Origin: Candidatus Coprovivens excrementavium
GTDB taxonomy: Bacteria > Bacillota_I > Bacilli_A > RF39 > UBA660
DNA length: 64,000 nucleotides
Direction of reading: 5' to 3'
Assembly (NCBI GenBank): GCA_944363975.1
Contig: CALVVU010000001.1
Location: 434,001 to 498,000, forward strand
This document shows positions 11,770-57,237 of this stretch, piece after piece. Numbering within the stretch: position 1 is the stretch's first letter; each line of letters starts with the position of its first letter. Below the pieces are notes generated by a model. The model did no database searches. It had not been told where the DNA came from and saw nothing but the letters and a program-made list of their open reading frames with translations. The position numbers were made by a program, and so were the translations under genes.

Positions 11770-13688
11770 TGAATAAAAAATTTGGATATGTAAGAGTTGC
11801 TGCTTCAGTACCAGAATTAAAAGTAGCTAATGTAGAGTTTAATACTAAAGAAGTTATTAAAGAAATTAAAACTTTAGATAAAGAAGGAGTACAAATTGTA
11901 ACTTTTCCTGAACTTTGTTTAACTGGTTATACATGTGCTGATTTATTTAGTCAGGATATCTTAATTACTAAGTCAAAAGAAGCAATAAAAGAGGTAATAG
12001 ATTCTACGAAATTATTAGATATTATATCTATTATTGGAGCTCCAATAGTATGTGATAATCAATTATTTAATTGTGGTGTAGTTATTAATAAAGGAAAAAT
12101 ATTAGGTATTGTCCCAAAGACTTATATTCCTAATTATGGAGAGTTTTATGAAAAAAGATGGTTTAGTACTAGTAATACTTTAACTAGTAAAACAATTAAT
12201 TTATTTGGTAAAGAAGTTCCTATTGGGATAGATTTAGTATTTAGAGATATTAATGATAGTAAATTTACATTTGGTATAGAGATATGTGAAGATTTATGGA
12301 GTCCTAAGGCTCCTAGTGTAGAAGCGGCTTTAAATGGAGCAACGATGATATTTAATTTATCTGCTAGTAATGAGCTTATTGGTAAAGCTCACTATCGTAG
12401 AAATCTAATTAATATGCAATCAGCTAAGAATGTGTGTGCTTATATTTATAGTTCATCTGGAGTTAATGAATCAAGTACAGATTTAGTATTCTCTGGATAT
12501 GCAGGGATAAGTGAAAACGGATCTATGTTAGTAGAAAATGAAAGATTTAATTTTAAAACTAATCATATTATTAGTGATGTTGATATCCAAAGACTTATGA
12601 ACAATAGAATAAAAGATATTAGTTTTATGGGAATTGGAGCTATAAATAGTTATAGAGTAATAGATATTGATTTAAAAGATAATAATAATGATTTAAAAAG
12701 AATATATGATGCATATCCATTTGTTCCAAGTAATGAAGATAAGAGAGCAGAAAGATGTTCAGAGATAATAAATATTCAAGCTTGTGGTTTAGCTAAAAGA
12801 ATTAAACATACAGGAATGAAAAAGTGTGTTATTGGAATTAGTGGTGGTTTGGATTCAACACTAGCTTTCTTAGTAATAATTGAGGCTTATCGTAAGCTAG
12901 GAATTTCTTTTGATAATTTGATTGGTGTTACTATGCCTGGATTTGGTACTACAGGTAGAACTTATAATAATGCCTTAACATTAATGAAAAATTATGGTGT
13001 TACAATGCGTGAAGTAAGTATTAAAGAAGCTTCTTTACAACATTTTAAAGATATTGGTCTTGAAGAGACAGATAGAAGTGTGACGTATGAAAATACACAA
13101 GCTAGGGAAAGAACACAAATATTAATGGATATTGCTAATAAAGAAGGTGGACTTGTTATAGGAACTGGTGATTTATCTGAGTTAGCTTTAGGATGGTGTA
13201 CTTATAATGGAGATCATATGTCAATGTATGCTGTTAATACTTCTATACCTAAAACTTTAGTTAGATATTTAGTTAAGTACTTTGCAGATATTGAACAAAA
13301 TGAAGAATGTAAGAAAACGATTTTAGATATTTTAGATACACCAATTAGTCCTGAGTTATTACCACCTTCAAAAGATGGTAAAATAGAACAACAAACTGAG
13401 AGTGTTGTTGGTCCATATATATTACATGATTTTTTCTTATATCATTTTATGAGATATGGAGCTAGTCCTGATAAAATTAAATATATTGCTAGTAAGACGT
13501 TTGATGGTATGTATGATGAAGAGACAATTGATAAGTGGTTAAAATTCTTTATTAAGAGATTCTTTAATCAACAATTTAAACGTAGTTGTTTGCCTGATGG
13601 ACCTAAAGTAGGGACAATAAGTGTTTCTCCTAGAGGGGATTTAAGAATGCCAAGTGATGCAGATAGTAGTATTTGGTTAGAGTATTAG
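11769..13688 (+). CDS. nadE: Glutamine-dependent NAD+ synthetase
   Basis: The 639-residue two-domain protein makes NAD from nicotinate adenine dinucleotide using glutamine nitrogen. The N-terminal nitrilase-like glutaminase domain has Glu in FPELCLTGYTCADLF, Lys in VPKTYIPNYGEFYEKRWF and Cys in FGIEICEDLW. The C-terminal synthetase domain has the ATP loop GISGGLDSTLAFL and GTGDLSELALGWCTYNGDHMSMYAVN. The length matches the long glutamine-dependent form. The start overlaps the upstream Nudix stop by one base, closing the first NAD operon. Confidence 0.97.
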   Translation: MNKKFGYVRVAASVPELKVANVEFNTKEVIKEIKTLDKEGVQIVTFPELCLTGYTCADLFSQDILITKSKEAIKEVIDSTKLLDIISIIGAPIVCDNQLFNCGVVINKGKILGIVPKTYIPNYGEFYEKRWFSTSNTLTSKTINLFGKEVPIGIDLVFRDINDSKFTFGIEICEDLWSPKAPSVEAALNGATMIFNLSASNELIGKAHYRRNLINMQSAKNVCAYIYSSSGVNESSTDLVFSGYAGISENGSMLVENERFNFKTNHIISDVDIQRLMNNRIKDISFMGIGAINSYRVIDIDLKDNNNDLKRIYDAYPFVPSNEDKRAERCSEIINIQACGLAKRIKHTGMKKCVIGISGGLDSTLAFLVIIEAYRKLGISFDNLIGVTMPGFGTTGRTYNNALTLMKNYGVTMREVSIKEASLQHFKDIGLEETDRSVTYENTQARERTQILMDIANKEGGLVIGTGDLSELALGWCTYNGDHMSMYAVNTSIPKTLVRYLVKYFADIEQNEECKKTILDILDTPISPELLPPSKDGKIEQQTESVVGPYILHDFFLYHFMRYGASPDKIKYIASKTFDGMYDEETIDKWLKFFIKRFFNQQFKRSCLPDGPKVGTISVSPRGDLRMPSDADSSIWLEY

Positions 13689-13696
13689 GCCTTCTT

Positions 13697-13725
13697 TTGA
13701 CTTTTTCGCTTATTTATGTTATAAT
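13697..13725 (+). promoter_or_regulatory. Promoter for riboswitch-like leader
   Basis: TTGACT (13697-13702), a 17-base spacer and TATAAT (13720-13725). The expected transcript starts near 13732, immediately before the structured leader. Confidence 0.75.
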
Positions 13726-13734
13726 TAAGTTACT

Positions 13735-13852
13735 TAAGAGGGAGTAGTTCCGTCGTACGATGTGATAATTCAACTATATGATTTATATAAAATCTGGATT
13801 ATCTAATTATATAGAACAAGACTTTTATGATGATATCATAAAAGTTTTTTTT
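13735..13852 (+). ncRNA. Candidate yybP-ykoY (Mn2+) riboswitch with terminator
   Basis: The leader has the two hallmark strands of yybP-ykoY RNAs, GGGAGTAG at 13740-13747 and CAAGAC at 13817-13822, flanked by a basal helix (AAGAG 13736-13740 with CTTTT 13822-13826). A second helix GATAAT/ATTATC (13764-13769 with 13798-13803) encloses an internal loop with TCAAC and CTGG, capped by TATAT/ATATA. The 3' strand of the basal helix is also the 5' arm of a perfect 11-base-pair terminator (13821-13845) with a T run. Metal-stabilised pairing would therefore block termination, an ON switch. Class assignment is from memory of the consensus; a tetrahydrofolate- or tRNA-type leader fits less well. Confidence 0.6.
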
Positions 13853-13876
13853 CTTAAGTATGAGAGGTTATGTGTT

Positions 13877-14545
13877 ATGAAAAATTTAAAATTGAATTTA
13901 AAAAAGTTATTATCTTTAAAAGGTGTTGCTCTTGTTTTAGTATTAACAACGGCAACAACATCTTTAGCTGGTTGTTCTAAAAAATCTGATTGTTCTATTG
14001 ATATAAATCATGCCCATAAATATGTGAATGATGATGGTTATATTAGATATATTGATAAAGAGTATATTTCTTATGAAGGATATACATGGACTGATGATTA
14101 TATAAAATTATCCGAGTCTGAAAGAGAATTTTATAAATTCTTTGATAAGAAGAATTTGCTTAGAATTGATGATAATTTAGATGTTATATTAAGTCAACAA
14201 GAAAAAAATTGTGATTATGTAGAATATCGTTATTCTTATACATATATGATGCCGATACCACATACTATGAGATCTGGAAAGTCGACAATAACTTATTTTA
14301 CTTATATTCCTACTACTCATCATTCTTGGACAGCAGATGCTAATCATTCTAACTTAACAGGAGAACAAAGAATGTGTCATTATGTTTATACTGCTTATAA
14401 AGTTGAGAAAGATGAAAATGGTGATTATGTTTTAATACCTAGTGAAGAGGTTGATGATATTATGACAGTTATGAATGAATATCCATATATTAAGGAAGAC
14501 TATTATAAGGTTATAAATTTGGAAGATGGAGTAGTCTTAGATTAA
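13877..14545 (+). CDS. His-rich lipoprotein of unknown function
   Basis: The start is ATG 13877 with gagagg at 13862-13867; a longer in-frame ORF from 13778 reads through the leader RNA and is rejected. The 222-residue product has a lipoprotein signal with lipobox LAGC about residue 33, so it should be tethered outside the membrane. It is rich in histidine (NHAHKY, PHTMRS, TTHHSW, ADANHSN, MCHYVY), suggesting metal binding. That agrees with the metal-riboswitch-like leader. The frame stops at TAA 14543-14545, but an acidic coding-like stretch continues in the same frame to TAA 14654-14656, where the terminator starts. Family unknown. Confidence 0.75.
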   Translation: MKNLKLNLKKLLSLKGVALVLVLTTATTSLAGCSKKSDCSIDINHAHKYVNDDGYIRYIDKEYISYEGYTWTDDYIKLSESEREFYKFFDKKNLLRIDDNLDVILSQQEKNCDYVEYRYSYTYMMPIPHTMRSGKSTITYFTYIPTTHHSWTADANHSNLTGEQRMCHYVYTAYKVEKDENGDYVLIPSEEVDDIMTVMNEYPYIKEDYYKVINLEDGVVLD

Positions 14546-14630
14546 GAAGATGGACCAGACGAGGAAGAAGAGAAAAAGCAATCAATAGAGGCTGAAGAAC
14601 AAAGTTATAAAGATAATAATTATAATAATG

Positions 14631-14666
14631 AAAAGAGGTTAAGTTTAAAATATTAACTTCTTTTTA
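14631..14666 (+). terminator. Rho-independent terminator
   Basis: AAAAGAGGTTAA pairs with TTAACTTCTTTT (one G-U pair) and a T-rich tail follows. It overlaps the end of the in-frame extension of the lipoprotein gene. Confidence 0.75.
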
Positions 14667-14742: not shown

Positions 14743-14775
14743 AACATGTTATTAATAAAATAATAATAACATGTT
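14743..14775 (+). repeat. 12-bp inverted repeat in the 5' leader
   Basis: AACATGTTATTA (14743-14754) pairs with TAATAACATGTT (14764-14775) around a 9-base loop, ending 3 bases before the ribosome site ggggag (14778-14783). It contains TGTTATTAATA, related to the operator at the promoter, so it could be a second operator or a translation-modulating hairpin. Confidence 0.6.
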
Positions 14776-14791
14776 GTGGGGAGATGTTAAG

Positions 14792-15202
14792 ATGAAGACT
14801 ACTTTTACAAAAGAAGAGATTATAAAATTATTAATTGAATATTATAAAAGATTAGAAGGAAGAGATGTTACAGTTGAAATAACATCTAAAAAAGAATGTA
14901 CAGGTTTGTATGAAACAGAGACTTGTGTAACAACATTTACGGTAATTGAAAGATTTAATATAGCTGGTATCAATAAGAAAGTAGAGACTGTTTTAAGTGA
15001 AGAAGAAGTAAATACTAATATGAAAGCATTATTTTCTTTATATGATTTTGATTTAAAATCTTTAGTTATTGAAGATGGGTTAGATACAGAATATGAAGGC
15101 TATGGTACTTATGAACATAGAGTATTGAAGCCATATTTTAAAGGAGTTACTGTTGATATTCAAAAAAGTAAAAATACTAGTAAAGCAATGTATTATAGAT
15201 AG
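14792..15202 (+). CDS. Unknown protein leading the second NAD operon
   Basis: The start is ATG 14792 with ggggag upstream; an earlier in-frame ATG at 14771 is inside the leader hairpin. The 136-residue product is soluble, with an N-terminal helix (TKEEIIKLLIEYYKRLEG) followed by an alternating strand pattern with two cysteines (KKECTGLYETETCVTTF). No family was recognised and no catalytic motif is evident. It is the first gene behind promoter 2 and lies 10 bases before PRPP synthase, so it is co-regulated with NAD salvage. This makes it a candidate for an undescribed NAD- or PRPP-linked factor. Confidence 0.75.
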   Translation: MKTTFTKEEIIKLLIEYYKRLEGRDVTVEITSKKECTGLYETETCVTTFTVIERFNIAGINKKVETVLSEEEVNTNMKALFSLYDFDLKSLVIEDGLDTEYEGYGTYEHRVLKPYFKGVTVDIQKSKNTSKAMYYR

Positions 15203-57019: not shown

Positions 57020-57025
57020 TAGCGC

Positions 57026-57237
57026 ATAAATCGATGAAAAGGACGAGTAGTATTAGAAACTGTTTAAAGAGAGCTAGAATGGTGAGAACTAGTAATAAGC
57101 CTAATATGAATAAAAACCTTTGAGTGGCTTTGCCCCGGATAATTCCGTTATAAATTATGAGAGATAATCAAGTTATAGATTAAAGAAGGGTGGTACCGCG
57201 AAAGTTTTTCGCCCCTTTGATCTATAACTTTTTTTAT
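57026..57237 (+). ncRNA. T-box leader of lysS
   Basis: The leader has the diagnostic T-box element AAGGGTGGTACCGCG (57186-57200), preceded by a structured stem-I region with AGAGAGCTAGAATGGTGAGAACTAG-like folding, and followed by a terminator (TTATAGATTAAAG against CTTTGATCTATAA with a T run, ending about 57236). Uncharged tRNA binding would favour the antiterminator. The downstream gene identifies tRNA-Lys as the expected effector; I could not place the specifier codon with certainty. Confidence 0.9.

Follow-up and report, generated by a model that had tools for sequence, protein, structure and literature searches.

A yybP-ykoY-family leader with a natural substitution at the Mn2+-discriminator base upstream of a lipoprotein gene in uncultured Bacilli

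Organization of the locus

The stretch of DNA analysed here (the window, 64,000 nucleotides from Candidatus Coprovivens excrementavium) carries a lipoprotein gene between nadE and prs. The nadE gene ends at position 13688 and the ATG of the lipoprotein gene is at 13877, with a promoter and a leader of about 120 nt between them. As a promoter is located at 13697..13725, the leader belongs to a transcript of its own that starts after nadE. Relatives keep the TATAAT element and the ACTTAAGAG that directly follows it. Residues 13736-13826 form a 91-nt aptamer of the yybP-ykoY fold, and a perfect terminator makes use of the 3' strand of this aptamer as well. The features of the locus are listed below; R2 is a covariance model described in the section on family assignment.

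13697..13725, +, sigma-70-type promoter TTGACT-17 nt-TATAAT, read directly from the sequence (TATAAT at 13720-13725)
13736..13740, +, P1.1 5' strand AAGAG, the switch helix (alignment, covariation, R2 match)
13741..13746, +, L1 5' strand GGAGUA (invariant in the aligned set)
13747..13750, +, P1.2 5' strand GUUC (compensatory changes)
13751..13762, +, P2 hairpin CGUC-GUAC-GAUG (compensatory changes)
13764..13772, +, P3 5' strand GAUAAUUCA (99% of cells paired; two-sided changes in 7 of 8 pairs)
13773..13779, +, L3 ACUAUAU, the metal-site loop of seven nucleotides (length as in published L3; PMC6754395)
13775, +, U at the Mn2+-discriminator position (A41 in L. lactis, A48 in X. oryzae)
13780..13794, +, P3.1 hairpin GAUUU-AUAUA-AAAUC (compensatory changes)
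13795..13803, +, P3 3' strand UGGAUUAUC (covariation)
13814..13817, +, P1.2 3' strand GAAC (covariation)
13818..13821, +, L1 3' strand AAGA (alignment of family leaders)
13822..13826, +, P1.1 3' strand CUUUU, common to the terminator (covariation, terminator overlap)
13818..13852, +, intrinsic terminator with a 14-bp stem, 13818-13831/13835-13848, and a U-run at 13845-13852 (eight T)
13862..13867, +, likely Shine-Dalgarno sequence GAGAGG, 9 nt 5' of the ATG (direct reading)
13877..14545, +, lipoprotein gene, 222 aa, lipobox LAGC at C33 (alignment of 13 homologues)

The two strands by which an earlier, sequence-only reading had recognized the leader, GGGAGTAG and CAAGAC, are both found as described, at 13740-13747 and 13817-13822. 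The L1 strands GGAGUA and AAGA are positioned between P1.1 and P1.2, and their alignment columns are invariant. P3 carries the seven-nucleotide L3 bulge on its 5' side, and P3.1 lies above it. There is no P4 hairpin in 13804-13813, and the four-way junction known from the crystal structures, which involves P2 and P4, is thus not formed. The missing P4 is not treated as excluding membership in the fold because P4 or P2 has also been lost from many relatives, exporter leaders included (heuristic count).

The segment TACTTAAG before the aptamer (13731-13738) is complementary to CTTAAGTA downstream of the terminator (13853-13860). These segments are kept in a related assembly, G004, and partly in G002, and they are paired in the unconstrained fold of the leader.

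The terminator and the switch

The 5' arm of the terminator (13818-13831) includes the 3' strand of P1.1 (13822-13826), as the sequence-only reading had proposed for the P1 helix. Because the terminator stem (13818-13848) includes this strand, helix P1.1 of the aptamer and the terminator are mutually exclusive, which is the arrangement of a transcription ON switch, and binding of the ligand should therefore turn the gene on. A terminator overlaps P1.1 in the same way in 42 of the 55 leaders of the window's bacterial family. The unconstrained minimum-energy fold does not contain the aptamer (-11.6 versus -15.8 kcal/mol), a result that neither refutes nor supports the aptamer, because the energy models ignore the metal and the tertiary docking.

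Conservation and family assignment

The leader was found in other genomes of the genus by DNA search, and a pattern search of the family gave some two dozen more leaders of the same plan, together with coding artefacts. The latter arise because the pattern GGGAGTAG...CAAGAC also matches a coding motif (GGGAGTAGGAGAACCTATTGATAT..., read as tgt), and these matches were set aside. In an alignment of 24 leaders, with a structure consisting of P1.1, P1.2, P2, P3 and P3.1, 92.3% of the cells are paired, and 18 of the 24 pairs show two-sided compensatory changes. None of 500 shuffles reached any of the five measures; when the pairing partners are shifted by one to three columns, only 25-49% of the cells remain paired. 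The covariation is strong, and the leader is more than a chance arrangement.

The sequence-only reading assigned the leader to the yybP-ykoY family and proposed a search with the Rfam model (RF00080) as the check, the lack of a covariance-model hit being taken to count against the assignment. This search gave no useful match to the leader, and none in the window or the genome, with either gathering or permissive thresholds. The gathering cut-off, which is a matter of detection and not of structure, is reached by none of 146 relatives either, and among 20 leaders sampled from other families RF00080 reports two, both below the cut-off. This failure is a weakness of the Rfam model for this lineage: it misses most leaders of the class in AT-rich Bacilli, including most of those that precede bona fide Mn exporters.

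Two further covariance models were used. R1 was trained on the leaders of the window's family. All five Bacilli leaders with an RF00080 match at E < 1e-4 are among its hits, as is a sixth to which RF00080 gives only a weak score, and R1 leaders are present in 93 of the 346 genomes of the class; two weak R1 matches, L163 and L207, are treated as false. R2 contains no leader of the window's family (its sequences are all non-f1), so that the query is absent from it. It matches the window leader with 61.6 bits (E = 5.3e-13), as the only match in the 64 kb, and in the whole 1.63-Mb genome the window leader is again the sole match (E = 1.3e-11). Because a model built outside the window's family matches the window leader, the fold is that of yybP-ykoY, and homology to the leaders of Mn-homeostasis genes is established by a model free of the query. 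The lack of a hit is thus confined to the Rfam model, and the family assignment is upheld by R2 and by the covariation. Fold and expression platform together make the leader a member of the yybP-ykoY family. Both R1 and R2 also detect far more leaders than RF00080 does at loci L174-L280, which belong to the other families of the class.

Because nadE and prs lie on either side of the locus and the surroundings form an NAD-salvage cluster, an unrelated leader such as an NAD-type switch might be considered, and the neighbours do include nicotinamidase-like, NAPRTase, NadE, Prs, NadD and NadK genes. However, Rfam shows no match to an NAD, PRPP or other riboswitch at the leader, the independent yybP-ykoY-type model does match (E = 5e-13), and related leaders occur far from NAD genes. 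This explanation is very improbable, and the NAD context was rejected as a clue to the ligand.

The lipoprotein

The sequence-only reading expected a lipoprotein and not an exporter behind the leader, and the LAGC lipobox in the frame that starts at 13877 bears this out. The clusters of histidines that it pointed to are present, but only H45, H47 and H168 among the histidines are conserved in the 13 homologues. The residues invariant in all 13 copies include these three together with the lipobox C33 and C39. The protein has no match in Pfam, in NCBIfam or among PDB sequences or PDB folds, where the top TM-scores, near 0.1, are meaningless; AlphaFold2 nevertheless models it with confidence (mean pLDDT 85.8). 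It belongs to a new family, in which a Cys-His-His-His set is invariant. An extracellular role in metal handling is plausible: these conserved residues, together with the switch that precedes the gene, suggest that the protein may bind metal.

Seven of the 13 aligned copies of this family (the HAH lipoproteins) are located behind such a leader, two of them downstream of an SPFH gene in a single operon. In G071, a leader was sought before the lipoprotein gene and not found. The frame in the window stops about 36 codons short of the homologues, and an acidic tail can be read behind the stop (14543-14656); intact, full-length copies exist in other genomes.

The discriminator base of the metal site

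In the known members of the class, L3 has seven nucleotides, UCAAUUC in L. lactis and ACAUACU in X. oryzae (PMC6754395). Its third base, A41 or A48, has been called invariable, and its N7 ligates Mn2+ (PMC6754395; PMC9190785). The A48U change in X. oryzae abolishes both the Mn2+-docked state and the stabilization of P1.1, and a U at this position was suggested to bind harder ions of the Mg2+ type weakly through its O4 (PMC6754395). In the structure of the L. lactis A41U mutant, most contacts of the MB site are unaffected (PMC9190785).

The L3 of the window leader is ACUAUAU. Its third base is U13775, and the invariable adenosine is thus missing from the position where the Mn2+ ligand is expected. 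L3 was read in 227 distinct aptamers, after two spurious matches had been excluded. Of these, 225 have A as the third base and one has G (G354:C27), and U is confined to the window sequence. The U-bearing aptamer is shared with G004, in which all 91 nt are identical. As G004 was assembled separately (contig CALVJQ010000017.1, a MAG of uncultured Bacilli), U13775 is not a sequencing error. No description of a natural change at the discriminator base was found in the open-access literature. The proposal of the sequence-only reading that the leader senses Mn2+ is not supported as it stands, since in laboratory work a U at this position does away with Mn2+ sensing (PMC6754395). As the defining adenosine was tested for and is absent, the leader should not be filed as an Mn2+ riboswitch. 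It is a candidate for a changed metal preference because it is without the adenosine that every studied member uses to recognize Mn2+.

An ordinary Mn2+ riboswitch is a less likely alternative. The main caveat to the reading of L3 is that a slip by one nucleotide, with an A13773-C13794 mismatch, would place A13776 at the discriminator position, where it could supply the N7; alternatively, the five phosphate contacts might suffice to hold the ion, as the L. lactis A41U mutant keeps most of the contacts of its site (PMC9190785). Every other element of the class is intact, and the usual L3 is found in sister leaders that serve the same lipoprotein family, such as those of G330 (beginning with UCA) and G002 (beginning with ACA). 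The slip, however, costs the A-C mismatch and a shorter P3.1, and with A48U the stability of P1.1 does not respond to Mn2+ (PMC6754395).

The laboratory mutant that loses Mn2+ sensing through a change at the discriminator base (PMC6754395) could also mean that the response to any ligand has been lost here, leaving a fixed attenuator or a decaying relic with basal read-through. The early stop of the lipoprotein frame, which in the homologues runs on for about 36 more codons, would agree with such decay. Conservation argues in the other direction, and loss of the response is unlikely. Between the window genome and G004 the four-fold sites of the flanking genes are only about 52% identical, yet the aptamer of these two species is identical and the terminator is kept, and the lipoprotein remains 84% identical. 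Part of the identity of the aptamer may reflect local exchange, because a run of 162 nt identical to G004 lies inside the lipoprotein gene (14171-14332). This run looks like a recent local exchange; 5' of it the third-position identity is about 68%, and ordinary divergence separates it from the leader.

Departures from the CA core at the second and third positions of L3 occur in four aptamers (AUA twice, AUG once and ACU once). All four belong to the window's family, and all four are upstream of lipoprotein or SPFH genes. This association is suggestive only, as the cases are few and partly related. The leader with G for A at the discriminator position (L105 763-846, in G354:C27) precedes a lipoprotein of the PGEH type; the A is present in a paralogous leader of that genome. 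A UCA/UGG closing pair together with an L3 starting with A was considered as a marker of a variant class, but this idea was abandoned, since the combination also occurs in ordinary leaders of exporters and the X. oryzae L3 is ACAUACU.

Genes behind related leaders

Outside the window's family, the first genes behind 75 sampled leaders comprise 33 P-type cation ATPases, 16 Na/Ca exchangers and 14 MntP proteins (63 of the 75 together), as well as four SPFH and two CNNM/CorC proteins. These targets are the classical Mn2+ regulon. Within the window's family, transporters account for only seven of 50 sampled genes (three P-type ATPases and four exchangers). The others include four SPFH proteins, two AdoMet decarboxylases, two nucleoside-deoxyribosyltransferase-like proteins, one NfeD protein and many unknowns. 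In an all-against-all comparison, the largest clusters of targets are the nine-member PEEYGD family, the seven-member PGEH type (mostly lipoproteins) and the HAH lipoproteins. In this one uncultured Bacilli family, the switch thus controls lipoproteins, SPFH proteins and several families of unknown proteins.

The PEEYGD proteins (about 190 aa) follow leaders with an ordinary core (L159, L157, L110, L137, L161, L149, L153, L112 and L156). SPFH/band-7 genes, and one NfeD gene, recur behind the switch inside and outside the window's family (L158, L160, L109, L122, L121 and loci of the class). Two similar leaders are present at each of the loci L122 (G400:C3) and L181 (G661:C44), about 0.6 and 1.2 kb apart; in the G400 pair, one leader precedes a short frame and the other the SPFH gene.

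A possible mechanism of switching and its significance

The leader resembles the yybP-ykoY Mn2+ riboswitch (RF00080; L. lactis yoaB, X. oryzae yybP) in the order of its parts (P1.1, L1 GGAGUA-AAGA, P1.2, P2, P3, L3, P3.1) and in its ON platform, where P1.1 and the terminator have a strand in common; leaders homologous to it precede Mn exporters in the same class. It differs from it in having a U in place of the Mn2+-coordinating adenosine, a three-arm junction without P4, a lipoprotein as its target and a score under the Rfam threshold. Its best explanation, to which a probability of roughly 0.5 may be given, is an ON switch of yybP-ykoY type that acts by transcription attenuation and whose selectivity for Mn2+ has been weakened or changed, the ligand side being what we infer. 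The sequence-only reading was right about the family and the platform; the ion that it named is unproven and perhaps wrong.

The switch is presumably functional and operated by a metal ion, which in the known class is Mn2+. A divalent metal would dock L1 against L3 and thereby stabilize P1.1. P1.1 would then hold the CUUUU strand, the terminator would be blocked, and the lipoprotein gene would be read. In the absence of the metal the terminator would form and the gene would be off; with plentiful metal the gene would be on. As the N7 of the adenosine is missing, the selectivity may have shifted, for example to harder ions such as Mg2+, bound through the O4 of the uridine; a general response to divalent ions is another possible outcome. 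The lipoprotein might bind the metal outside the membrane, or hand it over there, by means of its Cys-His-His-His set.

More tentatively, the leader may be a retuned member of the Mn2+ family in which the change from A to U has moved the selectivity to another divalent ion. It would control a new family of metal-handling lipoproteins, the RNA having been recruited in this lineage to envelope proteins instead of exporters. A metal-handling target on the outer face of the membrane would be in keeping with the precedent of B. subtilis MeeY, a TerC protein under an Mn riboswitch, which metalates exported enzymes (PMC10550928).

Variant riboswitch classes (guanine, adenine and 2'-dG; the ykkC subtypes) have likewise kept a scaffold while one or a few core bases, the target genes and the ligand changed. 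Sherlock and Breaker expect such variants of yybP, tied to target genes that are unfit for Mn2+ (PMC7266159). The Mn2+ class is taken to rest on one invariable adenosine, and A to U is the standard mutant for loss of sensing. Here the A-to-U change occurs naturally and is conserved, upstream of an atypical gene, and the question raised in PMC7266159, whether some members respond to other divalent ions, becomes directly testable.

Related observations

The consensus of SSRC10 (RF02617, Streptococcus sRNA 10) follows the same plan, GGGAGuag ... CGUCa ... CCG ... gaGaC, with a terminator, and looks like a yybP-ykoY aptamer with its terminator. RF02617 is catalogued as an sRNA. A related leader, G010:C21, matches it weakly (E = 0.22), and weak matches are located at L047 2641-2756 and L210 2488-2609.

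Between the lipoprotein gene and prs, a protein of 143 aa without a Pfam family is encoded at 14771-15202, and a homologue occupies the same place in G001. Elsewhere in the window, a T-box leader is found at 57025-57219 (E = 2.5e-24).
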